A stretch of 26,955 bases of DNA, taken from IMG/VR virus record IMGVR_UViG_3300035698_031524, positions 1 through 26,955 of that record. One strand, given 5' to 3'. Under the pieces are notes generated by a model. That model worked only from the letters and a program-made list of their open reading frames with translations, was not told where the DNA came from and did not search any database. Numbering within the stretch: position 1 is the first letter of the stretch; each line of letters begins with the position of its first letter. Positions 2,264 through 24,685 of this stretch are shown here, one piece after another. Both the position numbers and the translations under genes were made by a program. The DNA is from a virus.

Positions 2264-2410
2264 ATGGAAAAAATATATAAAACAATATTGCTAATATTAT
2301 TCCTTTTTATGGCAATATTATCTTCAATATTAACGTTGTATTTTATTATTTTTGTGACATATATTTACCAAGAATATGATGCGTATTTTAGAAATCCAAT
2401 TCTTCTCTAA
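2264..2410 (+). CDS. Small membrane protein, 48 aa
   Basis: A short open frame runs from ATG at 2264 to TAA at 2408-2410. The product has a basic N-terminus (MEKIYKT) followed by a continuous hydrophobic segment to about residue 35 and a short polar tail. This predicts a single-pass or hairpin membrane protein. It fills the only gap between the divergent membrane protein gene and the uvsW-like gene, and its 3' end overlaps the latter by 23 bases, repeating the convergent-overlap pattern seen elsewhere. No Shine-Dalgarno is visible. The start MEKIYKT resembles MEKLYQL encoded beside the palindrome at 3853. It could be spurious, since AT-rich DNA yields hydrophobic frames easily. Confidence 0.45.
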   Translation: MEKIYKTILLILFLFMAILSSILTLYFIIFVTYIYQEYDAYFRNPILL

Positions 2411-3833
2411 CATCTACTTTATGTCCTTCTTTTTTCAACGTTTTAATTCTTTTGTTAGAATGATCCTCTAAATACTCATTGGTTTTATACACAAAATCAA
2501 AATATTTCAGCATTTCTTTATCATTAGCTGGTCTTAATCCACGACCAAATCTTTGCACTATTGTATGATCCGCTTTTCCACCGGCTGCATTTATTAAATT
2601 GTGAATAAAAAAGTTAATACCAGCATTTAAAATTTGATGTGTTGCGATTGCAGTCACATCCTCTTTCGAATGCCTAAGTTGTTCTAAAACTTCGTTTCTG
2701 ACCTCTAAACTGTCTTCCCCTCTTATCCATAAAGAATTAGGAAGTATGCTTTTTAAATAATCTCCATGAGATATCCTTTCAACAAGGATAAGCGATCTCC
2801 CACGAAGTTTTTCAGTTACCAGTCTTTTAATTACATTATGAAAATAAATGTTTTCAGATATTCCGTTTTGAACTGCATCTTGATACATGTCAAGCTCTAT
2901 ATTTTCAGGTTGGACTATTGGATAAAAAACACAATCTGCATAGGACAACTGACCTCTTTCTTGAAGTTTTTTAGTTGACAATACTCCATTTTCAGCAGCC
3001 GTAGACTTTATTTTAAATACTGGACCAAAATAGCCTTTGACACTATATTTTTGACATTGGTCTTTTCCCCCAAATTTAAAAGGAGTAGCACTCACTCCAA
3101 TTCTGACATCACAATTTACAAGTTTGTTATAGAACTTTTTAGAAACTTTAGTCATCATCAAATGCACTTCGTCTACAATAATTGCTTTGATGTGTGGCAA
3201 CAGGCTTTCTATTTTGTGTAGAGATTGAACAGTAGCACATGTGATAATATTAGGTTCTTTGTATTTGTCATACAATCTGCCTACGTTTTCAAATTTCCAT
3301 TGTACAAGCTCGTTGTAATTTTGTTCAACTAAGCTTTTTTGTCGACATAGAATAAGAGTAGGAGTTTTAGGCGGCAGGCACTTTAAAATAGAAATCATAA
3401 TAGCTGTCTTGCCAGCGGCAGTGGGAGCTTTTACTATCCCCCTTCTATATTTTATTGATTGATTTGTTAAATCAGCTTGATAATCATGTAGAACATATGG
3501 TTTATCACTGTCGTTCCATTGATTTAGAAAATTCTCATCTATTGAATTAAAAGCAAAATTAGTTATAGTTCTTTCATCAACTAATTTATATTTCACTCCT
3601 AAATGTTTCAAGGCCAACTCTACTTCTGGTAGAAGTCCAGTTAGAAACTTACCATTTTTTTTTGTGAAAAAATCAGTAAACCCATCCCAAATTTTCTGTT
3701 TATATAATCTACTATGGAAATAACCTTTTTCACGAAAACGCAGAGCTTTCCAAAGTATATTTCTTGTAGAGTCGCAATTAGTATTCAGCCAAGAATAACA
3801 ATTTTGAACACGTATTGCAGCTTTCTTTTCCAT
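2388..3833 (-). CDS. uvsW: UvsW-like DNA helicase, 481 aa
   Basis: This is a superfamily 2 helicase close in length to T4 UvsW (about 500 aa). After an N-terminal domain of about 110 residues there is LHDYQ (Q-motif-like, 115-119), Walker A APTAAGKT (136-143), DEVH (221-224), SATPF (248-252) and motif VI QRFGRGLR (427-434). UvsW unwinds branched DNA and R-loops and helps T4 switch from origin-dependent to recombination-dependent replication. The gp32, UvsX and UvsY-like genes of this window fit that role. The ATG at 3833 lies inside a 36-bp perfect palindrome and has no Shine-Dalgarno, and an in-frame stop is 12 bases upstream, so this is the earliest ATG start possible. Confidence 0.85.
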   Translation of the reverse strand: MEKKAAIRVQNCYSWLNTNCDSTRNILWKALRFREKGYFHSRLYKQKIWDGFTDFFTKKNGKFLTGLLPEVELALKHLGVKYKLVDERTITNFAFNSIDENFLNQWNDSDKPYVLHDYQADLTNQSIKYRRGIVKAPTAAGKTAIMISILKCLPPKTPTLILCRQKSLVEQNYNELVQWKFENVGRLYDKYKEPNIITCATVQSLHKIESLLPHIKAIIVDEVHLMMTKVSKKFYNKLVNCDVRIGVSATPFKFGGKDQCQKYSVKGYFGPVFKIKSTAAENGVLSTKKLQERGQLSYADCVFYPIVQPENIELDMYQDAVQNGISENIYFHNVIKRLVTEKLRGRSLILVERISHGDYLKSILPNSLWIRGEDSLEVRNEVLEQLRHSKEDVTAIATHQILNAGINFFIHNLINAAGGKADHTIVQRFGRGLRPANDKEMLKYFDFVYKTNEYLEDHSNKRIKTLKKEGHKVDVREELDF

Positions 3834-3860
3834 AAGATATAATTATATCTTATGGAAAAG
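3825..3860. repeat. 36-bp perfect palindrome over the uvsW-like start
   Basis: Each half is 18 bp, with the centre between 3842 and 3843. The outer arms contain ATGGAAAAG on both strands. On the minus strand this is the start of the uvsW-like gene. On the plus strand it opens a seven-codon frame (MEKLYQL then stop) just before the membrane protein gene at 3891. The element could act as a bidirectional promoter or operator for a dimeric regulator, or as an RNA hairpin hiding the start codon. The inverted symmetry is seen directly and the role is inferred. Confidence 0.9.
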
Positions 3861-3890: not shown

Positions 3891-4109
3891 TTGAGATTCA
3901 AATTTAAGCCTAGACTAGAATGGATGTCTTTTTTAGAAACTAGATATCCGTTCTATATTTGTGCATTTGCAACCGTTTTTTTAGCTACAGTCAAAATAGT
4001 TCTAAACGAGTCTATTAGTTGGAATTTTGTATTTGCCCCTGTAGTGGCATTGTCATTAATTGTTTTACTATGGATTTTTACAGTATTTGCAATATTGTTT
4101 AGATTTTAA
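3891..4109 (+). CDS. Small membrane protein, 72 aa
   Basis: The product has a basic N-terminus (MRFKFKPR) and two hydrophobic segments at about residues 20-38 and 46-71, so a two-span membrane protein with both ends inside is likely. The TTG start is chosen because AAGGAG at 3876-3881 lies nine bases upstream. Its 3' end overlaps the convergent kinase gene by 11 bases. A holin-like or membrane-remodelling role is possible from size and topology alone, but nothing specific supports it. Confidence 0.65.
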   Translation: MRFKFKPRLEWMSFLETRYPFYICAFATVFLATVKIVLNESISWNFVFAPVVALSLIVLLWIFTVFAILFRF

Positions 4110-4704
4110 CATTTGGTTGCCATTTTCTTATCATTCTTCTTATTGCGTCTAACGGAACACCATGAGTATTGCCAGAAGTTCCATATTTCTTACTTAACCC
4201 CCCATGAACACCTGCTAACAATCTTGCAAAGTCTTCTAACTCTGCTTTGTGATTATTTTTATCATCTAACATATGGCGATAATCATTCCACCAAGGGGAA
4301 TCAGGCTCTTTTAATATAACTTCGTACCCATTACTTCTAGCTTCTTTTATATAATTTTCAAACTCCCACAATTTGACATTTGTATTGTCTACAATGACTG
4401 GAGTTGTTTTTTCACCAATAGCTTCTTTAAATCTATTAAAGTTCCATTTATGTGCTTGGCTTAATTTGCTAAGATCAAAATTAGATTTATACACTTCTAT
4501 TTCTTTCAAAGTGCATTCGTCATGATTAAGACCTTTTTTTTGTTCTTTTGTAAAGCCCTGTATAAAAAATTTATCTGTTGAAAATATATGTTTGTCAGGA
4601 TCACTACCGCCAAGTTGTTCTAAAACTTTTTTGGCAGTATAAGATTTACCTGAACCGGGGATTCCCCTGCAGATTATGCAAATTTTTTTGTTTTTATTTT
4701 TCAT
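4099..4704 (-). CDS. P-loop kinase related to polynucleotide kinase / N4BP2-like proteins, 201 aa
   Basis: Walker A GIPGSGKS lies at residues 14-21, followed by STD (42-44), which matches the acceptor-side Asp of polynucleotide-kinase-like enzymes, and VDNTN (105-109), the hallmark of the AAA_33 / N4BP2L group. These proteins phosphorylate nucleic acid 5' ends or related small substrates using ATP. There is no phosphatase domain, unlike T4 PseT. It is the last gene of a minus-strand operon, starting directly after the stop of the histidine-phosphatase-fold gene (TAG ATG), so coupling is likely. Substrate is not determined; RNA end repair is one possibility given the cREC-like gene nearby. Confidence 0.7.
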   Translation of the reverse strand: MKNKNKKICIICRGIPGSGKSYTAKKVLEQLGGSDPDKHIFSTDKFFIQGFTKEQKKGLNHDECTLKEIEVYKSNFDLSKLSQAHKWNFNRFKEAIGEKTTPVIVDNTNVKLWEFENYIKEARSNGYEVILKEPDSPWWNDYRHMLDDKNNHKAELEDFARLLAGVHGGLSKKYGTSGNTHGVPLDAIRRMIRKWQPNVKI

Positions 4705-5342: not shown

Positions 5343-5597
5343 TTAAGTTTCTTTAGATAAAAAATCAATTAATTCTTTTATTGTAATTCCATTTTTTATT
5401 CTTTCTTCAACAGAAATGTCATTTTTTAAAATGCCTCTTTCCATCATAGAAGAAATAATACTAGAATCTATATCTTTTGTGTTTAAATCAAGTATATCTT
5501 CTTCGTTGTGAATATTCAATTTATCTTTTAGAAAATCCATAATGACATTTTGAATACCGTTTTGATTAAATTCTTCTATCCATAATCTAAATTGCAT
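5343..5597 (-). CDS. Small protein of unknown function, 84 aa
   Basis: I do not recognise this protein. It is predicted to be mostly helical, with an aromatic N-terminus (MQFRLWIEEF) and an acidic middle. It is the first gene of the minus-strand operon leading to the pseudo-phosphatase and the kinase, with an eight-base gap to the next gene. The ATG lies inside a 48-bp perfect palindrome, has no Shine-Dalgarno, and is preceded by CTAAATA plus four bases. Its first three residues (MQF) are identical to those of the divergent gene at 5626 because the palindrome includes both starts. Confidence 0.65.
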   Translation of the reverse strand: MQFRLWIEEFNQNGIQNVIMDFLKDKLNIHNEEDILDLNTKDIDSSIISSMMERGILKNDISVEERIKNGITIKELIDFLSKET

Positions 5598-5635
5598 AAT
5601 TTATTTAGTGATCACTAAATAAATTATGCAATTTA
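5588..5635. repeat. 48-bp perfect palindrome spanning two divergent start codons
   Basis: Twenty-four bases on each side of the centre (between 5611 and 5612) match perfectly. The central eight bases are GTGATCAC. Each arm contains CTAAATA, a four-base spacer, then ATGCAATTTA, so both divergent genes begin within the element, 28 bases apart, with the same promoter-like box and the same first codons. Neither gene has a Shine-Dalgarno. A perfect repeat of this length is not expected by chance even in AT-rich DNA. A bidirectional promoter with an operator for a dimeric protein is the simplest reading. Confidence 0.95.
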
Positions 5636-6411
5636 AAGATTTTAAAAATTGGTTGATAACAGAAAAGTTCAAAGATGTTTTCGGCATGGAGAAGCAAAAG
5701 CCAATAAAATCCGTTGAACAGGATGAAATGCCTATAAATTTTTTCAATGTTGAAAAGTTGGCAGAAGAATTGAAAATGTTTAAATTGGGTGAAAAATTAC
5801 CACATAGTGAATATGTTAATGAAATTGATTGGGGGAGTAACACAGGGGCTGTCAGATTAAAAGTACATCCAGATTTACATACAGAAATAGCTCGTTTAGG
5901 AATGAATCTATTAGGAGAAAAAGTATGGATAACCAAAAAATTATTTTTGATAAATAGAGAAGGATATGGTGGGAAAGAACACGAAGTAGCACAAAAACTT
6001 TTAGAAGAACTTGAACGTGTTGACAATATGGAAATCAATTACCCTGATGAAAAATTTGACAACATGCCTCAATTGGTCATTGCTATGGCTACTAAAATGA
6101 GACAGTCTGCACGACAAATACATCTATATGAGGGTATTAAAGAACTCGACAGCAATACATATATCATTAGATTTAGTGTAAGGGGACATGGACTAGAAGG
6201 ACCAGATCACAGTAGAATAATAGAAAACCAAACCTTAGTGCATTACGATAAAATAAAAGGGCATATAAGGCTTACAAATTATAATATAGAAACGCCCGTA
6301 AAAGGACATGCTTGGAGCATAAAACCTGTAGATACTGATGTCTTTTTTTTTCCAACCCAAAATAAAGACGAAATAACAGAAATAATAGCAGCTACAATGA
6401 GATGGTATTAA
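5626..6411 (+). CDS. Protein of unknown function, 261 aa
   Basis: I do not recognise a family. The N-terminal 15 residues (MQFKDFKNWLITEKF) are aromatic and basic and look like a short helical tag. The rest is a mixed alpha/beta globular sequence with no signal peptide, membrane segment or nucleotide-binding motif. Residues about 177-197 contain a cluster of charged and glycine residues (FSVRGHGLEGPDH). The ATG lies in the 48-bp palindrome. The gene at 6413 follows after a single base, so the two are co-transcribed. A virion role is possible because T4 internal head proteins carry short N-terminal tags, but that is speculation. Confidence 0.7.
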   Translation: MQFKDFKNWLITEKFKDVFGMEKQKPIKSVEQDEMPINFFNVEKLAEELKMFKLGEKLPHSEYVNEIDWGSNTGAVRLKVHPDLHTEIARLGMNLLGEKVWITKKLFLINREGYGGKEHEVAQKLLEELERVDNMEINYPDEKFDNMPQLVIAMATKMRQSARQIHLYEGIKELDSNTYIIRFSVRGHGLEGPDHSRIIENQTLVHYDKIKGHIRLTNYNIETPVKGHAWSIKPVDTDVFFFPTQNKDEITEIIAATMRWY

Positions 6412-6412
6412 A

Positions 6413-6643
6413 ATGGCAAAAAGCAGCAACCCGTCTAAAGCCGCCATCGACGGCGTTGAAGGAATGATGAACGCCTTTAAAGACTACACTCTTTCAACTC
6501 GAAGAAAAGCTTGGAAAATGATGTCAGGCAATAAAGGCAGTAAAGAAATATCTAAAATATTAAGCCATCCTGTAAGAAGCAAATCTAGATTTAAAAATCT
6601 TAGTTTTCGGGAATGGATTGAAATTCATTCTGAAAAAGAATGA
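6413..6643 (+). CDS. Small basic protein of unknown function, 76 aa
   Basis: The protein is rich in Lys, Arg and Ser, with an N-terminal MAKSSNPSKAAIDG segment, a central basic helix and a C-terminus FREWIEIHSEKE. No family was recognised. It starts one base after the stop of the 261-aa gene, so translation is probably coupled. The first 60 bases are richer in G and C than the surroundings. The basic character would suit a nucleic-acid-binding or head-associated protein. The 3' end overlaps the convergent gene at 6600 by 44 bases, the largest tail-to-tail overlap in the window. Confidence 0.6.
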   Translation: MAKSSNPSKAAIDGVEGMMNAFKDYTLSTRRKAWKMMSGNKGSKEISKILSHPVRSKSRFKNLSFREWIEIHSEKE

Positions 6644-7313: not shown

Positions 7314-7430
7314 GTCGCTATTTTAATTTAACCTATAAAAGAACTTGATTCGCTTCTAGTTAATGTATAAGATAACATCTTAACAATCAACATTAATAAC
7401 TGACAACCTCAACTTTAATCTACTTTAACA
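7314..7430. other. Gene-free left part of the 575-bp interval, with a short inverted repeat
   Basis: This stretch contains no supportable open frame. At 7368-7382 there is a 6-bp inverted repeat, TAAGAT AAC ATCTTA, that could be an operator or part of a promoter for the RNA that follows, or for the minus-strand gene at 7313. Nothing else stands out. Confidence 0.4.
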
Positions 7431-7816
7431 CGCAGAACGCTACTGTAAAGCGATTTTATTAATTAATTGATGAGTTCCAATTAAAATAAAATTTAAAAAA
7501 CTAGCTGGCTTGTGACCCTGAAGCTAAAGACGTTGAATTAACAATACCAACGATAGCTAATTGTCTTTAAGTTGTGCCATTATCGAAACCCTCTCCAAAA
7601 AGCTGACTAATCGTCGGAGTGTGTATTCGGTGACTTTTGTCACGTAATATGCTTTTAATGGTTTTTTAAAGACGCAATAACACTGAACTTATAATAGATT
7701 TTGTACTGATGTTGAGAACCAACATTTTGTACGGTTTAATTCGTCTTAAATTAAGATATTCAATTAATTATATTGAATTTTACTTAAGACCAGCTAAAGA
7801 AAGGGTTTGTTCTGCG
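7431..7816 (+). ncRNA. Candidate large structured RNA (or structured leader) upstream of the DNA polymerase
   Basis: Reading by eye, the plus strand forms nested helices that abut one another. An outer stem pairs CGCAGAAC 7431-7438 with GTTCTGCG 7809-7816. A hairpin pairs CGCT 7438-7441 with AGCG 7449-7452. A 15-bp helix pairs 7453-7469 with 7478-7492, with an AA bulge. An inner closing stem pairs TAGCTG 7502-7507 with CAGCTA 7791-7796. Inside it are hairpins CGTTG/CAACG (7531-7552), CTGAC/GTCGG (7603-7617), GTGAC/GTCAC with a UUUU loop (7630-7643), ATGTTG/CAACAT (7709-7725) and GTCTTAA/TTAAGAC (7743-7790). AAACCCT 7586-7592 can pair with AGGGTTT 7802-7808, crossing the inner stem as a pseudoknot. 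A U-G pair in one hairpin favours the plus strand. No terminator follows, so it may be the leader of the polymerase mRNA. I could not match it to a known family. Confidence 0.6.
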
Positions 7817-7888
7817 CATATTTAATTACGTTTCTAGTCAGGTTTTAATTGCTTGCATTTACCAATTTTCGATTCTACAATTTGATCT

Positions 7889-9166
7889 ATGGAAATAGAA
7901 ACAGCATTAGAACAGTTGCGTGGCAAGGCACTGTTTATAAAAACAGAACCACTTGATTTGGATTTTTCTATTCCAAAAGAAGGTTTTGTTGTTGTTTCTT
8001 CAGAAGATAAATTGACTTTGAAGTTCCATTTGTCTTCTTCTAAAAAACAACTTTTGTTTAACTTAGCACAGTTGACAGCTTATACATGCGTCAGTCCTGT
8101 AACTATATGTTGGAATATTAAAAGTTTATTTAGTTTTTATTTAAAACATGTGGGTAAAAGATTGGTTGTTAGTAATTTTTATGATTTGAAGTTTTTAGAA
8201 AACTATTTGGGCATAAAAAAAGACCCACCTGTAAATTTTCTTGAAGCTAAAGAGCGATTGGGGAAGGTTTTATCTCATAAAGATTGGGAAAAAGCGAGCA
8301 GAGTATATATAAATGTATATAAAAGCCTAATTTCCAAAACATTACCGGATATTGAGACTATAGGTTTAATAAAAAAAAGAAAACAGTATTATTCGTGTTA
8401 TGAAATAGAGGGGCAAAGGAACGGGCGGCTGAAATGCAGCCAATTGTTTGCAAATTCTTTTAATCCTCACTCAATGTCAAAAGAGTTTAAAGAAGATGTT
8501 AAACCACCAAGTTTAGATCATATTTTTATGCATTTTGATTACAATCATATGGAACCATCGGTTTTGCAGTGGTTGTCGAAAGATACTGTTTTGTTCGATA
8601 TGTTTTCTAAAGGAGATTTGTATGAATCTGTATGGAAAAAACTAACAACATTAGATGCAACACCTGTAACGAGAAAAAAATGTAAAAAGCTGTTTTTGCC
8701 AGTTATTTATGGACAGGGAATAGAATCCATTGCAGAAAGAAACGAAATAGATTTAGATTTGGCTAAAAAACTAAGAGAAAGAATATACACATGTTTTCCT
8801 ATGGCAATGGGGTGGTTGATAGAGGGACAGAAAATTTCGGGCAATTGGGCTGTTGATAAAATGGGGCGACATCGTTATTTTGACGAAAAAGAAAAATATA
8901 AAATTAGAAACTTTTTGGTTCAGTCGCCTGCGTCTTTGTTTTGTTTAAGTAAATTGAATGAGTTAAATGAAGGTGTGGGAGATTTAGCTCATGTAGGCAG
9001 CTATACCCACGATGGATATATTCTCTATGTGAGAAAAAAAGATGTATCACAATTGAATTTTGTAGGGAAAAAAATTCTAGAAAGCGAAAATAAACTTTTT
9101 CCCGGATTAAAATTGAAAGTGTCATGCGAAGTAGGTTATAATTTGAACTTTATGAAAAAAATATAA
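7889..9166 (+). CDS. Family A DNA polymerase, short form, 425 aa
   Basis: Motif A is HFDYNHMEPS (215-224) with metal ligand Asp217 and the conserved Glu222. Motif B runs R262, K266, L270, Y274-G275, and motif C is HDGYI with Asp375. This is a template-directed DNA polymerase catalytic core. The position equivalent to E. coli Pol I Phe762 is Leu270. The N-terminal 200 residues look like a decayed 3'-5' exonuclease: FIKTEPLDLD (16-25) stands where DTETTGLD is usual, with Lys replacing the first catalytic Asp. At 425 residues it is much shorter than T7 or bacterial Pol I enzymes. An in-frame stop lies three bases upstream of the start codon, no Shine-Dalgarno precedes it, and the structured region 7431-7816 lies just upstream. 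Confidence 0.88.
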   Translation: MEIETALEQLRGKALFIKTEPLDLDFSIPKEGFVVVSSEDKLTLKFHLSSSKKQLLFNLAQLTAYTCVSPVTICWNIKSLFSFYLKHVGKRLVVSNFYDLKFLENYLGIKKDPPVNFLEAKERLGKVLSHKDWEKASRVYINVYKSLISKTLPDIETIGLIKKRKQYYSCYEIEGQRNGRLKCSQLFANSFNPHSMSKEFKEDVKPPSLDHIFMHFDYNHMEPSVLQWLSKDTVLFDMFSKGDLYESVWKKLTTLDATPVTRKKCKKLFLPVIYGQGIESIAERNEIDLDLAKKLRERIYTCFPMAMGWLIEGQKISGNWAVDKMGRHRYFDEKEKYKIRNFLVQSPASLFCLSKLNELNEGVGDLAHVGSYTHDGYILYVRKKDVSQLNFVGKKILESENKLFPGLKLKVSCEVGYNLNFMKKI

Positions 9167-17437: not shown

Positions 17438-18379
17438 ATGGAAAAAAAAATATTGATAACAGGTGGCTTGGGATTTATCGCAAGCCACCTTGTTAATTTG
17501 TTGTTGGAGCAGGGCAATATTGTTGTAAATGTCGATAATGTGACATATGCAGCAGATTATACTCGTATAGATTCAGATTTGGCAAATCAAAATTATCATT
17601 TTTTAAAAAAGAATGTTGCATATGAAAAAGATATAGACTATATGTTTTCTTATATGAATTATGATATTGTTTATCATATGGCTGCACACACCCATGTCGA
17701 CAATAGCATAGAAACTCCTTTGTTATTTACTGAAAACATTCAAAGCACATCTTTGATTTTAGAACAAATAAGGAAGCGAGAGATGAAACTTGTTTACATG
17801 AGTACCGATGAAGTAATGGGGGATTTAGAATATGACGAAAAGAGATTTGACACGAATTCTCCATTAAAACCATCTTCTCCATATTCTGCAACAAAAGCGT
17901 CTGGAGAAATGTTGGTTAGAGCTTATAAAAGAACTTATGGAATAAATGCTTCGTGTTTGCGGGCTACAAATGCTTATGGCCCAAAACAGCATAAAGAGAA
18001 ACTGATACCTAAAACTATAACCAATTCCATATTAGGGAACAACATCCCTGTATATGGGAGTGGGCAAAATGTTCGTGATTGGATTTTTGTGGAAGATTTA
18101 GTAGAAGCTATTGTTTTTATAGGCAATATGCCCGTATCTCCAGAAGTAATAAATGTTGGGTCAGGGAATGAAAAGACCAATATAGATTTGGTTAACATGA
18201 TACTAAATCTAGTTGGAAACAAAAAAGCAAAAATAGAATTTGTTAAGGATCGTCTTGGGCATGACAAGAGATATGCAATCAACCCAAAAGAGTTAGCTCT
18301 TTTGGGTTGGACAGCACACACTTCTTTTGAAGAAGGAATTGAGAAGACGATAGAGTGGTATAAATCAAAAGTCAACTAG
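17438..18379 (+). CDS. NAD-dependent epimerase/dehydratase, dTDP-glucose 4,6-dehydratase-like, 313 aa
   Basis: This is an extended short-chain dehydrogenase. TGGLGFIASH (8-17) binds NAD, AAHTHVDNSI (82-91) and STDEVMGD (122-129) match RmlB signatures including the Asp-Glu acid-base pair, YSATK (149-153) is the catalytic Tyr-Lys, and GSGQNVRDWIFVEDL matches the substrate-binding region. RmlB converts dTDP-glucose to dTDP-4-keto-6-deoxyglucose for deoxysugar synthesis. UDP-sugar relatives cannot be excluded. No other rml genes are in view. It follows uvsX by 11 bases with only a weak AAGG. Its 3' end overlaps the convergent gene by 15 bases. Confidence 0.82.
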   Translation: MEKKILITGGLGFIASHLVNLLLEQGNIVVNVDNVTYAADYTRIDSDLANQNYHFLKKNVAYEKDIDYMFSYMNYDIVYHMAAHTHVDNSIETPLLFTENIQSTSLILEQIRKREMKLVYMSTDEVMGDLEYDEKRFDTNSPLKPSSPYSATKASGEMLVRAYKRTYGINASCLRATNAYGPKQHKEKLIPKTITNSILGNNIPVYGSGQNVRDWIFVEDLVEAIVFIGNMPVSPEVINVGSGNEKTNIDLVNMILNLVGNKKAKIEFVKDRLGHDKRYAINPKELALLGWTAHTSFEEGIEKTIEWYKSKVN

Positions 18380-18853
18380 AACATATTTGCCTGCACCTTT
18401 TTTGGCAAATATTCTATTGTTTTTTTCTAATTGTTTTCTCACGTTAGAAAAGTGATTTGAAAAACAACTTTTAGTCAATCCATAATTTTCGAATTCTGTG
18501 GATATTTCGGTTAAAGACAACACATTTCCAGCCAACAATTTTGTCTTAATATATTTTTTTATATTTTTTGACATTTCTTGCCTTTTGGGCTTTGTAGAAA
18601 GTATAATTCTTTTTTCTTTATGGTTTTCTATTAAAGTCTCGATTATTTCATATTTTGTAGATTTGGAAACAGTGCCAGTTGTAATATGTTCAGCCAACTT
18701 TTTTATAGGCAACAAACTTGGACTTTCTGCTTTTACTTTTATTATGTTTGCCTTGAACGTTTTTGCAAATTCTATTAATTGAGCATAGTTTTTTATTTGT
18801 GTGAAATATTTTTCATTGTCTTTGGTGCTAATTAGTAAACAAGTTGTCATCAT
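18365..18853 (-). CDS. Protein with a winged-helix-like C-terminus, 162 aa
   Basis: The N-terminal half (TKDNEKYFTQIKNYAQLIEFAK, in parts) is an unrecognised alpha/beta region. The C-terminal half from about 90 has a basic stretch, then LSLTEISTEFENYGLTKS (118-135), SNVRKQLEKN and GAGKYVL, in the order helix, turn, recognition helix, wing. This suggests a DNA-binding winged helix. The ATG ATG at 18853 is preferred. A TTG at 18919 would add 22 basic residues and lie only six bases from the divergent gene start at 18926. It could be a phage transcription regulator and a candidate to bind the palindromic promoters, which is inference only. On the plus strand, ATATTTGCC/GGCAAATAT (18383-18412) could end the neighbour's transcript. 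Confidence 0.65.
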   Translation of the reverse strand: MMTTCLLISTKDNEKYFTQIKNYAQLIEFAKTFKANIIKVKAESPSLLPIKKLAEHITTGTVSKSTKYEIIETLIENHKEKRIILSTKPKRQEMSKNIKKYIKTKLLAGNVLSLTEISTEFENYGLTKSCFSNHFSNVRKQLEKNNRIFAKKGAGKYVLVDF

Positions 18854-21358: not shown

Positions 21359-24300
21359 TTGCCCCCAATTGTTAAAATAAAAGATCAAAATGAATTAGTT
21401 GATACCAGTTCGTTCCCAAAATACGCACATTTTCCTTTTGAAAAATTCAATCCTGTTCAAAGTCGAATATTTGAAATATATGACAAAGAATGTAGTGTGG
21501 TGATTGCAGCGGCCACTAGCGCTGGGAAAACGGTTTGTAGCGAAATGTTCGCTAGTCATGAAATTAGAGAACGTGGGGGCAAGGCTTTATATTTAGCTCC
21601 ATTAAAAGCACTAGCTAAAGAAAAAATAGATGATTGGACTGATCCTAAACATCACTTCAATGATTTGAATATGTCTATATGTACAGGAGACTATAGGCTA
21701 ACACCAGCCAGAAAAAAAGAATTAGAAGTTTCAGATTTTATCATAATGACATCTGAAATGTTGTTAAGCAGAACTAGAAATTTTAAATCTGAACAAAATG
21801 AATTTTTAAAAGACGTTGGTACTGTCATCGTTGATGAGTCGCATTTGTTGACAGTACCGGGTCGTGGGGATCATCTAGAAGTAGGATTGATGAAATTGAG
21901 CCAAATTTCAAAAAATCTTCGCATCGTCTTTTTATCAGCGACTATGCCTAATGTAGATGAAATAGCGGAATGGATCAGTTATTCGCTAACAGGTAGAGAG
22001 ACTTATTTATTGGAATCAAAATATCGTCCGTGTCCTTTAGGCGTTCATTATGAAACATATTGGCCAGAAAAGAACTACGACGACACTGAAAAAGAAAAAG
22101 TCAATAAGGCTATAGAAATAATAGATGAAAACAAAGAAGATTTGTTTTTAGTTTTCGCTCACACGAAAAGAACAGGCCAATTGATGAAAAAATCTTTAGA
22201 AGAAGATGGATACAAGTGTGAGTTTCACAGTGCGGATGTCACAAAAGAAGATAGACAAAAGATAGAAAAAAAGTTTAAAAATAAAAAATTAGACGTTTTG
22301 GTTGCTACTAGTACCGTTGCTTGGGGATGCTATGCAAAAGGCAGTTTGATGTTTGGTCCTGAAAAAACTTCTTTTGTCGAAGATTTAAAAATTAATGATG
22401 AACTTTTATCTTTGTCAAAAGAGGGGACTATTGAAACGGTAAGAGTTTTAGATAAAAACGAATATGAAACAACTGGATACTATGAAGTAGAATTGAAATC
22501 TGGCGAAAGATGTAAAGTAAGCAAAGATCATGTTTTTTGGGGGGCAATGGCAAGAGAATCGCCTGCTTGGGTTGATGTAAGCAAATTGAAAGTTGGCGAT
22601 TTCATCGGCGTTCCTAAAAATGACGATTTTACTAATCCAAAATTTGTAGAAGATGATTTGTCTTATTTACAAGGTTATTTAGCTGGTGATGGATGTTTGA
22701 CACAGGCTGGAAAATATGCCAACAATGAAAATAAAATATTATTAGACATTGCTTTTGGGAAAGATAATAGACACATTGATTATGTTGAGAATCTTTTTCT
22801 TAAATTGTTTGATTATAAAATAAACACATGTGAAGATGTTAATGACGTTAAACACTTGGTGTCTAAGAAAAAATCAATAGTAGACAACTTTCTGAATATT
22901 ATTCCAATAGGTCGTAAAGGGGAATGGCTAATATCTAGTGCTATTTGCAATGACGAAAAGATGGTGTCGTTTTTGCAAGGTTTATATGATGCAGATGGCT
23001 GGCCTGAAAAATATAAAAATGGTAATTTTTCAGTTGCTTTGGCAACTATTAGTTATAATTTATGTCTACAAATAAAACATTTTTTGTTTCGTTTTGGAAT
23101 AAATTGCTCAATATCAAAAAAGAAAATGAAAGATGTTTGTATCAATGGCAGATGGCAAAAAGCTGTTCGAGATTACATCTATGAATTGAAGATCAGAAAT
23201 AGTCATGCTAAAAACTTTGAAAAACTAATTGGTTTCAGAATGAATTCTAAAAAAGAAATTTTATCTGGTTTTGAAGTTAAGGAAAAAAGTTTTCAAGATA
23301 CTCACGATTTGGTTCCTGTTCGAAAAGCGTTTGAAGAACATGTAAATCAATTAAAAATTAAGCATAAATATTTGGCGAAAACATCTGTTGATAAATGGTA
23401 TTTGTTGAATAAAGGTGAAATCACTAGAAGTAAATTGCAAGAGTTTTTAGATTTATTTCCTGCCGATACAGAGTTAAACAAACTGTGCAATTTGAATGTT
23501 AATTGGAAAAAAATAAAATCAATAAAATTTGTCAATGAAAAATCTTCGTTTGTTGAGATAAAAGTTGATAAAAATGAAAACTACATTGGTAATGGGATAA
23601 TATCTCATAATTGCAATCTACCCGCACGTAGAGTAATTGTTTTAGGAGTCCATAGAGGCATGAATGAAGTGGCCACCTACGACATTTGGCAAATGGTAGG
23701 CCGATCAGGGCGAGTAGGGCTTGATCCTCGTGGAGACGCTTACATACTGCTTCCATACGGTCATGAGGTTAAGCATATGGAGAGGTTAAAAGATCACCAA
23801 CCGATAGAATCTAGATTGTTAGATCATGTGGGGACTTTTAAGAATGCTCATTATAAAACATTGGCTTTTCATCTAGTGAGTGAAATACACCATAAGAGCA
23901 TTCAAACTCTTGACGATATTCACAAATGGTATCAAAAATCTTTAGCACATTTTCAGGCAAAAGATTTAGACGATGAAATAGTTTTGTCAACAATGGAATC
24001 GTTAGAAAAGTGCGGGGCTATTAAAAAAGAAGGTGATATATACAAAGTTACAGCTATAGGCATGGTAGCTAGTATGTTTTACTTTAGCCCGTTTGATGTG
24101 TCTGATTTGAGGAAGAATTTCAAGGCTCTATTTGCAAGTGGTCAGGAAAACAATGATATGATATTGTCTATATGTTTGGGGAATATAGACTCAAATAGAA
24201 TGGGAATAGCTAGTAAAGCTGAAAAAGCAGTTTTTATAAACTATAAATTGAAATTAGAAGGTATGTTTGGAAAAGGCGAATTTACAGATGCCGCATTAAA

Positions 24301-24685
24301 AACTGGTTATGCATATTATTCGTTGATGAACGGGATCAATTCTCCTGTTTTGTTGTCGTATCAAAAAACATTGCAATGGGATGCTCCTAGACTTATTCAA
24401 GTTTTGAATTCTTTAGATCAAATAAATTGTAAATGGGACAGAGAAGAATGGTTTGGGGATTTAGCTTCTAGAATGTCTTATGGCGTAAAATCCCATTTGA
24501 TAAATTTAGTTAGACTGCCAAATATAGGAAAAGTGAGAGCGGAAAGACTATGGGATGCAGGGATAAAAACTCCTAGCGATGTTGCCGAAAATGCTAACAA
24601 AGTTAAATCAGTATTAAATATGAAGGCTGATAAAGTGAAAGAAATATGTGAAATAGCTCAATTGATGAAAGGAACAAATGCTTAA
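21359..24685 (+). CDS. Hel308/Ski2-like DNA helicase interrupted by an intein, 1108 aa precursor
   Basis: Helicase motifs are Walker A ATSAGKT (52-58), TxxE-like TSEML (131-135), DESH (159-162), SATMP (193-197), motif V split by the intein (TSTVAWG up to 323, then CNLPARR from 752) and motif VI QMVGRSGR (778-785). A C-terminal helix-hairpin-helix, LVRLPNIGKVRAERLW, ends the protein. Removing the 428-residue intein leaves 680 residues, the size of Hel308 enzymes, which unwind stalled forks 3' to 5'. This family is best known from archaea and eukaryotes and is not part of T4. The TTG start is chosen for GAGAGG seven bases upstream. It overlaps the next gene by eight bases. Confidence 0.87.
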   Translation: MPPIVKIKDQNELVDTSSFPKYAHFPFEKFNPVQSRIFEIYDKECSVVIAAATSAGKTVCSEMFASHEIRERGGKALYLAPLKALAKEKIDDWTDPKHHFNDLNMSICTGDYRLTPARKKELEVSDFIIMTSEMLLSRTRNFKSEQNEFLKDVGTVIVDESHLLTVPGRGDHLEVGLMKLSQISKNLRIVFLSATMPNVDEIAEWISYSLTGRETYLLESKYRPCPLGVHYETYWPEKNYDDTEKEKVNKAIEIIDENKEDLFLVFAHTKRTGQLMKKSLEEDGYKCEFHSADVTKEDRQKIEKKFKNKKLDVLVATSTVAWGCYAKGSLMFGPEKTSFVEDLKINDELLSLSKEGTIETVRVLDKNEYETTGYYEVELKSGERCKVSKDHVFWGAMARESPAWVDVSKLKVGDFIGVPKNDDFTNPKFVEDDLSYLQGYLAGDGCLTQAGKYANNENKILLDIAFGKDNRHIDYVENLFLKLFDYKINTCEDVNDVKHLVSKKKSIVDNFLNIIPIGRKGEWLISSAICNDEKMVSFLQGLYDADGWPEKYKNGNFSVALATISYNLCLQIKHFLFRFGINCSISKKKMKDVCINGRWQKAVRDYIYELKIRNSHAKNFEKLIGFRMNSKKEILSGFEVKEKSFQDTHDLVPVRKAFEEHVNQLKIKHKYLAKTSVDKWYLLNKGEITRSKLQEFLDLFPADTELNKLCNLNVNWKKIKSIKFVNEKSSFVEIKVDKNENYIGNGIISHNCNLPARRVIVLGVHRGMNEVATYDIWQMVGRSGRVGLDPRGDAYILLPYGHEVKHMERLKDHQPIESRLLDHVGTFKNAHYKTLAFHLVSEIHHKSIQTLDDIHKWYQKSLAHFQAKDLDDEIVLSTMESLEKCGAIKKEGDIYKVTAIGMVASMFYFSPFDVSDLRKNFKALFASGQENNDMILSICLGNIDSNRMGIASKAEKAVFINYKLKLEGMFGKGEFTDAALKTGYAYYSLMNGINSPVLLSYQKTLQWDAPRLIQVLNSLDQINCKWDREEWFGDLASRMSYGVKSHLINLVRLPNIGKVRAERLWDAGIKTPSDVAENANKVKSVLNMKADKVKEICEIAQLMKGTNA
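22328..23611 (+). other. Intein with LAGLIDADG homing endonuclease, 428 aa
   Basis: Residues 324-751 of the helicase precursor form the intein. It begins with the nucleophile Cys324 (CYAKGSLMFG) and has block B SKDHVFWG with its conserved His at intein position 68. Two dodecapeptide LAGLIDADG motifs, LQGYLAGDG (114-122) and LQGLYDADG (216-224), each keep a catalytic Asp. It ends ENYIGNGIISHN with His427-Asn428. The +1 extein residue is Cys752, so all protein-splicing residues are intact. Insertion is inside helicase motif V (AWG / CNLP), a highly conserved site where an unspliced protein would be inactive. The endonuclease would spread the element to intein-free alleles. Both catalytic parts look functional. 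Confidence 0.93.

Follow-up and report, generated by a model that had tools for sequence, protein, structure and literature searches.

A 48-bp perfect palindrome over two divergent gene starts in a group of uncultured huge phages: a candidate two-sided late-gene start element

The window, i.e. the whole 26,955-bp stretch of DNA analysed here, is a virus record that encodes UvsX/RecA, a DnaB-type helicase, a single-strand binding protein, a UvsW-type helicase and a fragment of a family A polymerase. Sequence comparison places it in a group of huge phages whose nearest named record is LR756511 (595 kb, uncultured). No near match to the window was found in the phage collection, in which p261, one of the two genes at the centre of this study, had a single relative (in LR756511) and its neighbour p84 had no match; 80 loci of the huge-phage group were gathered through uvsW matches. 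Genes were called as simple ORFs, the records are metagenomic and mostly incomplete, and the enrichment tests reported below were devised after examples had been seen; comparisons with known systems draw on the publications cited and on stretches of T4, Aeh1 and S-PM2 analysed alongside. The features of the p84/p261 locus are the following, where CTS stands for the capsid-targeting sequence of phage T4:

5343..5597, minus strand: p84, small protein with the T4-CTS-like N-terminus MQFRLWIEE, with a 46% identical homolog in locus L055
5588..5635, no strand: perfect 48-bp palindrome, TAAATTGCATAATTTATTTAGTGA joined to TCACTAAATAAATTATGCAATTTA, an exact self-match
5602..5608, minus strand: mirror-image late promoter box CTAAATA, 4 nt 5' of the p84 ATG, at the group-wide spacing peak
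5615..5621, plus strand: T4-type late promoter box CTAAATA, 4 nt 5' of the p261 ATG (group-wide spacing peak 4-5 nt)
5626..6411, plus strand: p261, conserved protein with the T4-CTS-like N-terminus MQFKDFKNWLITE, with homologs in 46 fetched loci and in LR756511
6600..7313, minus strand: p237, whose 3' end overlaps p76 (6413-6643, plus strand); relatives are 45% identical

Elsewhere in the window, the DEAD-box/Holliday-junction helicase gene at 21359-24685 (+) is interrupted by an intein that contains a LAGLIDADG domain (Pfam Intein_splicing 361-751, E 3.3e-15), and the family A DNA polymerase match at 7889-9166 (+) covers only 425 aa (Pfam DNA_pol_A, E 1.4e-14), so that other parts of the polymerase may be encoded elsewhere. 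Upstream of this polymerase gene, about 575 bp (7314-7888) hold many stops and no plausible gene, making a control region or an RNA possible there; an Rfam search of the window returned zero matches.

The first-pass annotation of this DNA had described a perfect 48-bp palindrome containing two divergent promoters and the first codons of two genes, a description that proved exact. The palindrome has 24-bp arms and zero loop, whereas 300 second-order Markov copies of the window gave a longest palindrome of 24 bp (mean 16). Its dyad, with the core TTTAGTGATCACTAAA, is centred between the two promoters, and CTAAATA stands exactly 4 nt before each ATG. Both ORFs open inside the palindrome with an ATG-ATG gap of 28 bp, and the mirror covers the intergenic bases, the ATG and 7 more bases on each side; 5343-5597(-) starts with MQFRLW and 5626-6411(+) with MQFKDF, so that the mirrored first residues MQF are indeed common to both. 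The perfect palindromes of the window measure 48 bp, 36 bp (3825-3860, which the earlier reading had not mentioned), and then 14 bp.

Perfect palindromes of 36-48 bp also lie between convergent gene ends of related phages (G007 268005-268052, G007 130652-130691 and LR756511 487213-487248), where they are apparently bidirectional terminators. The window palindrome resembles the 48-bp one of G007 268005-268052 in being a long perfect inverted repeat, but it differs from the terminator palindromes of these phages, situated at gene ends, by its position at gene starts and by having no G+C-rich stem with a T-run. With an A+T-rich stem placed at gene starts, and not figuring among the terminator-like sites, it does not classify as an intrinsic (bidirectional) terminator. 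Hairpin telomeres of protelomerase systems stand at genome ends and go with a protelomerase gene, and the window palindrome has a conserved gene on each side. That long palindromes might characterise the whole group was considered and rejected, most long inverted repeats of the relatives being at gene ends.

In many relatives p84 and p261 are divergent neighbours with starts 14-54 bp apart, and the order and orientation of p261 and its divergent MxxFxxW partner are kept in L016, L015, L056, L067, L095, L101 and others, both families opening with M-x-x-F-x-x-W. In L055, the closest locus (45% identity for p261, 46% for p84 and 61% for the UvsW-like helicase), the pair is split by three genes (about 2 kb). 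The AlphaFold2 model of p261 (pLDDT 83) found no clear match in the PDB; its C-terminal half reached Z up to 8.6 against capping-protein-like folds, a value within the range of unrelated models, and p261 relatives approached through a single sequence or a diverse alignment gave no usable result.

An assembly artefact, either a fold-back or a chimeric contig, had been raised as a concern, the record being a metagenomic virus contig known from its contig sequence alone. We regard this explanation as extremely unlikely: the flanks differ on the two sides of the palindrome, both frames run on into conserved proteins, a fold-back would duplicate far more sequence, and a chimeric join is made improbable by the relatives that keep the divergent p84/p261 pair in the same order and orientation.

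In the p84/p261 interval of these relatives, no inverted repeat longer than 6 bp was found, so the 48-bp form is specific to the lineage of the window, and because the relatives have no palindrome at this locus its function is something we infer. Asymmetric intervals in related phages, which the first-pass annotation had named as evidence against its reading, thus exist, at this locus only. Close divergent starts in relatives without a palindrome would also fit a bidirectional promoter and nothing else, in which overlapping divergent late promoters serve compact co-expression and the hairpin is incidental. Symmetrical promoters with divergent transcription are common in bacteria (PMC12825309), and divergent transcription from symmetrical sequence is likewise predicted for the window palindrome; but such a promoter requires neither a perfect mirror nor mirrored codons, and the window has two separate boxes with mirrored codons in place of one shared pseudo-symmetrical -10 element, which makes this reading highly unlikely.

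The two boxes follow a grammar that is common to the huge-phage group. Across 3.98 Mb of its sequence, CTAAATA precedes an ORF-opening ATG 33 times at 4 nt and 31 times at 5 nt, against about 3 times per other spacing, and CTATATA does so 15 times at 4 nt and 33 times at 5 nt, control words being flat. In the T4-like phage Aeh1, CTAAATA serves as the late promoter and begins at -12 (PMC1524935); T4-type late promoters carry a TATAAATA-like box, of which CTAAATA is a variant, at -12/-13 to -6 relative to the transcription start. The palindrome arms use the same 7-base box as this T4-type (gp55) promoter; unlike the group, the T4, Aeh1 and S-PM2 stretches have the late box mostly 14-40 nt upstream of the ATG. 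Since a box 4-5 nt from the ATG places the transcription start at most 1 base from it, late RNAs of the group should be leaderless, and for the p261 box at 5615-5621 (+) the start is predicted to lie within 1 nt of the ATG. Of 13 group records searched, 6 encode a gp55-like late sigma (E 1.5e-9 to 2.3e-6); it was not found in the 27-kb window, itself a fragment.

Boxed genes are, moreover, enriched in an N-terminal tag. The pattern M-x(1-4)-[FY]-x-x-[WFY]-[LIMVF] opens 52 of 99 boxed ORFs versus 391 of 5579 others (7%; odds ratio 14.7, p 2e-32); it occurs in 443 of all 5678 ORFs, and the reversed motif in 104. In the window, box and tag come together only on p84 and p261. T4 ipII and ipIII begin with MKTYQEFIAE, and starts of this type are the capsid-targeting sequence of T4 internal head proteins (PMC3012670, PMC5694885). 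The group tag is similar in being an N-terminal M-x(1-4)-F/Y-x-x-W/F-L/I with an acidic residue nearby, accompanied in the group by a gp21-type prohead protease (6 of 10 records, E near 1e-48), and the T4-type pattern M-x-x-[FY]-x-x-[WF]-[LI]-x-E was found at the N-terminus of otherwise unrelated late proteins. Compared with the T4 CTS, the group tag is present on about 6-8% of ORFs, and its role in prohead targeting and in cleavage by the prohead protease is putative. Across the group, for example in LR756511, G007, G008 and G014, many of these T4-CTS-like starts are on otherwise unrelated proteins behind predicted leaderless late boxes.

It had also been proposed that a transcript crossing the palindrome would hide the start, and in silico folding agrees with this. 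Read-through RNA is predicted to fold at -26.4 (+) and -26.9 (-) kcal/mol (z -7.6 and -6.4) with the ATG fully paired, while the structure predicted for late RNAs that begin at either ATG is unremarkable (z 0.26 and -0.06). Hairpins that enclose a late promoter are known at the T4 late genes e, soc, 49, I-TevI and segB and at mobE of Aeh1 (PMC3014915, PMC2988022). The window element is like them in having a T4-type late box inside an inverted repeat, with a longer RNA that would mask the initiation region and a late RNA without the 5' arm; T4 e, when refolded, gave the same layout, with TATAAATA within the hairpin (cf. PMC3014915). Three features of the T4 lock are found here, namely the box inside an inverted repeat and, in silico, a long RNA stem containing the start codon and a stem-free late RNA. 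Unlike the T4-type hairpins, the window element is common to two genes on opposite strands, its stem is a perfect 48-bp palindrome, and it masks the AUG and not a Shine-Dalgarno site, the late RNA being expected to be leaderless. Boxes, spacing, tags and predicted folds are direct readings of the sequence.

In our preferred reading, for which we estimate a probability of roughly 0.5, the 48-bp palindrome is a two-sided late-gene start element, a T4-type lock made bidirectional and leaderless, whose symmetry arose by template switching. Each arm would be a CTAAATA-N4-ATG promoter fused to the first codons of a CTS-like tagged gene, the two copies standing head to head. In either direction, an early or antisense RNA crossing the element would fold and mask the start codon; when the late sigma comes into action, the RNA would begin inside the element at the AUG, without the 5' arm, and would be translated, the same principle as at T4 genes e, soc, 49 and I-TevI but bidirectional and leaderless. 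That translation is blocked, and freed again late in infection, is what we infer from this arrangement.

Read-through toward the palindrome is possible on the plus strand because the 3' end of p72 overlaps the convergent 4099-4704(-), and on the minus strand because the 3' end of p237 overlaps the convergent p76. Such a putative RNA would be antisense to the flanking genes, which counts against the lock, and the lock may add little because known locks mostly hide the Shine-Dalgarno site, of which the window start has none. Further points weigh against it: with no inverted repeat above 6 bp in any relative at this locus, comparison lends the 48-bp element itself no support; other examples are few (three independent loci outside the window); and the second palindrome of the window has a different promoter type. 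This second palindrome lies at the uvsW start, among the following features:

2388..3833, minus strand: UvsW-like helicase (phrog_16, E 1.7e-68; relatives 54-61% identical), with its first codons MEK inside the 36-bp palindrome
3825..3860, no strand: the other perfect palindrome (36 bp), which spans the uvsW start codon
3842..3869, minus strand: sigma70-like promoter TTGATA-16-TATAAT (11/12) for uvsW, overlapping the 36-bp palindrome
3891..4109, plus strand: p72, small putative membrane protein with a TTG start and AAGGAG, located 3' of the 36-bp palindrome and overlapping 4099-4704(-) with its own 3' end

The promoter here is sigma70-like and not late-type, and the predicted RNA folds reach -27.9 (+) and -20.6 (-) kcal/mol (z -5.3 and -4.0). 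On the plus strand, the mirrored 'start' encodes just MEKLYQL and a stop, before the TTG start with AAGGAG at 3891. The 36-bp palindrome may act as a related device, or may simply be another outcome of the mutational process behind the 48-bp one.

The two palindromes have no core sequence in common, which bears on the possibility that the 48-bp element is a symmetrical operator, bound by a dimeric phage or host regulator that co-represses or co-activates both genes. A perfect dyad between two promoters, with the core TTTAGTGATCACTAAA, is what such an operator would look like; but a search of IMG/VR found the exact 20-bp core at no other place, the second palindrome is built on a different one, and analogous elements differ in sequence outside the late box. 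No regulator candidate stands out either: the 18365-18853 protein, whose binding the first-pass annotation had suggested testing, is singled out by nothing and has weak sub-cutoff family matches only. A common operator is consequently not supported, and we consider it quite improbable.

Start hairpins were sought at other loci as Watson-Crick stems of at least 9 bp that include an ORF-opening ATG and enclose a loop of 15 nt or fewer. They occur at 6 of 171 TAAATA-N4/5-ATG starts versus 62 of 32390 starts overall (p 1e-6), at 4 of 213 when the window is left out and both boxes are taken together (p 7e-4), and at 0 of 377 permuted words. Because those of G016 37459 and L121 are homologous, the 4 hairpins outside the window amount to three independent loci. 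The box sits in the hairpin loop, as in L005 (TGGACATGGAGG-ATAAATA-CCTCCATGTCCA, the loop being exactly ATAAATA) and G016 (CTTCCCCATGACGT-AAATA-ACGTCATGGGGAAG). One gene carries the hairpin in three records, with the arms TAATCCCATGCG-box-CGCATGGGATTA in G016, TAATGCCATGCG-box-CGCATGGCATTA in L121 and CTTAATCCCATGCGG-box-CCGCATGGGATTAAG in L098, and its pairing is preserved through a double C-G to G-C change. Whether relatives keep the symmetry while the sequence changes, a check suggested in the first-pass annotation, is answered by yes for this homologous hairpin and by no at p84/p261, where intervals are asymmetric. The G016/L121/L098 hairpin belongs to one late gene, since the antisense ORF overlaps a conserved plus-strand gene, and this late gene sits downstream of a co-directional gene, as do T4 gene e and also I-TevI, segB and mobE (PMC2988022). 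Two apparent mirrored divergent pairs dissolved in this way, the minus ORF in G016/L121/L098 being antisense to the conserved plus gene.

Over all boxed starts, mean start-codon pairing was not significantly higher than in shuffles (p 0.10), so only some of the late genes are marked by start hairpins. Folding z fell below -2 at 33 of 111 boxed starts versus 4 expected, partly from upstream terminators. A further hairpin at G014 344905 (+), with a 22-bp stem and a 21-nt loop, covers AAGGAGG and the ATG of an MKFDLYKKKY gene with no late box, and is a classical RBS-sequestering hairpin.

As for the origin of the perfect symmetry, two head-to-head late modules already share the box, the ATG and the F codon, and thereby form a quasi-palindrome. 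Template-switch copying between two such similar promoter-start modules would have perfected the symmetry, most likely from the p84 side to p261. The p84 family opens with MEF, MHF, MRF, MKF or MQF in relatives, so MQF is native to it; the conserved F of p261 stands at position 6, codons 2-3 differ from L055 and MQF occupies the place of the L055 MSI, which suggests that the p84 start was copied onto p261. Copying between the arms, one of several origins the first-pass annotation had listed, is thus the likely one. Correction of such repeats by template switching has been described outside phages, in other organisms (PMC3820800, PMC8604942).

The main rival to the lock takes this process as the whole explanation: a polymerase template switch on a quasi-palindrome equalised the arms, and the symmetry is a mutational product with no function of its own beyond a working p261 late promoter and start. 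It would account for perfect arms that reach into the codons of both genes, for two different perfect palindromes within 27 kb, and for the MEK codons copied in the 36-bp palindrome, which have no coding role because they open only a 7-codon uORF. The p84 and p261 openings described above and the published cases of inverted-repeat homogenisation fit it as well. Mirror runs of at least 9 nt beyond the ATG, found in 3 of 422 divergent pairs versus 0.19 expected, also speak for it, one of the three being the window itself and one (G016) a single-gene hairpin. Against it, start hairpins concentrate at late-box starts even without divergent genes, a concentration that copying alone fails to predict, and the pairing of one hairpin survives a double change, though copying could also yield a double change. 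On this balance a purely mutational product appears rather unlikely. Mirroring of divergent genes as a general phenomenon was rejected, the enrichment being weak (at least 6 identical nt in 3 of 432 pairs versus 0.49; with the window left out, identical first codons of at least 6 nt in 2 versus 0.49 expected, p 0.09).

Taking up the two-sided lock again, the element probably works like the known T4 switches, in which late genes stay off until the late promoter within the hairpin fires, with the difference that two genes are served at once. More tentatively, and with somewhat less than even confidence, one perfect palindrome may combine two leaderless late promoters with a start-codon trap for both genes, as the extreme case of a group-wide device that sets late boxes in hairpin loops before capsid-targeted proteins. 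If the lock is real, 48 bp of palindrome provide two genes with their promoter, their start codon and a regulatory stem, and if the proposed origin is correct, the palindrome also preserves a naturally occurring case of template-switch mutation in phage DNA.

These results connect an unusual palindrome with a promoter grammar of uncultured huge phages that is open to testing: a CTAAATA or CTATATA box 4-5 nt ahead of an ATG allows leaderless late genes, often with CTS-tagged products, to be predicted from sequence alone. The CTS-like tagged ORFs of the group form a possible catalogue of head-packaged proteins, and the combination of box and tag offers a way to list candidate head-packaged, injected proteins without a laboratory host.
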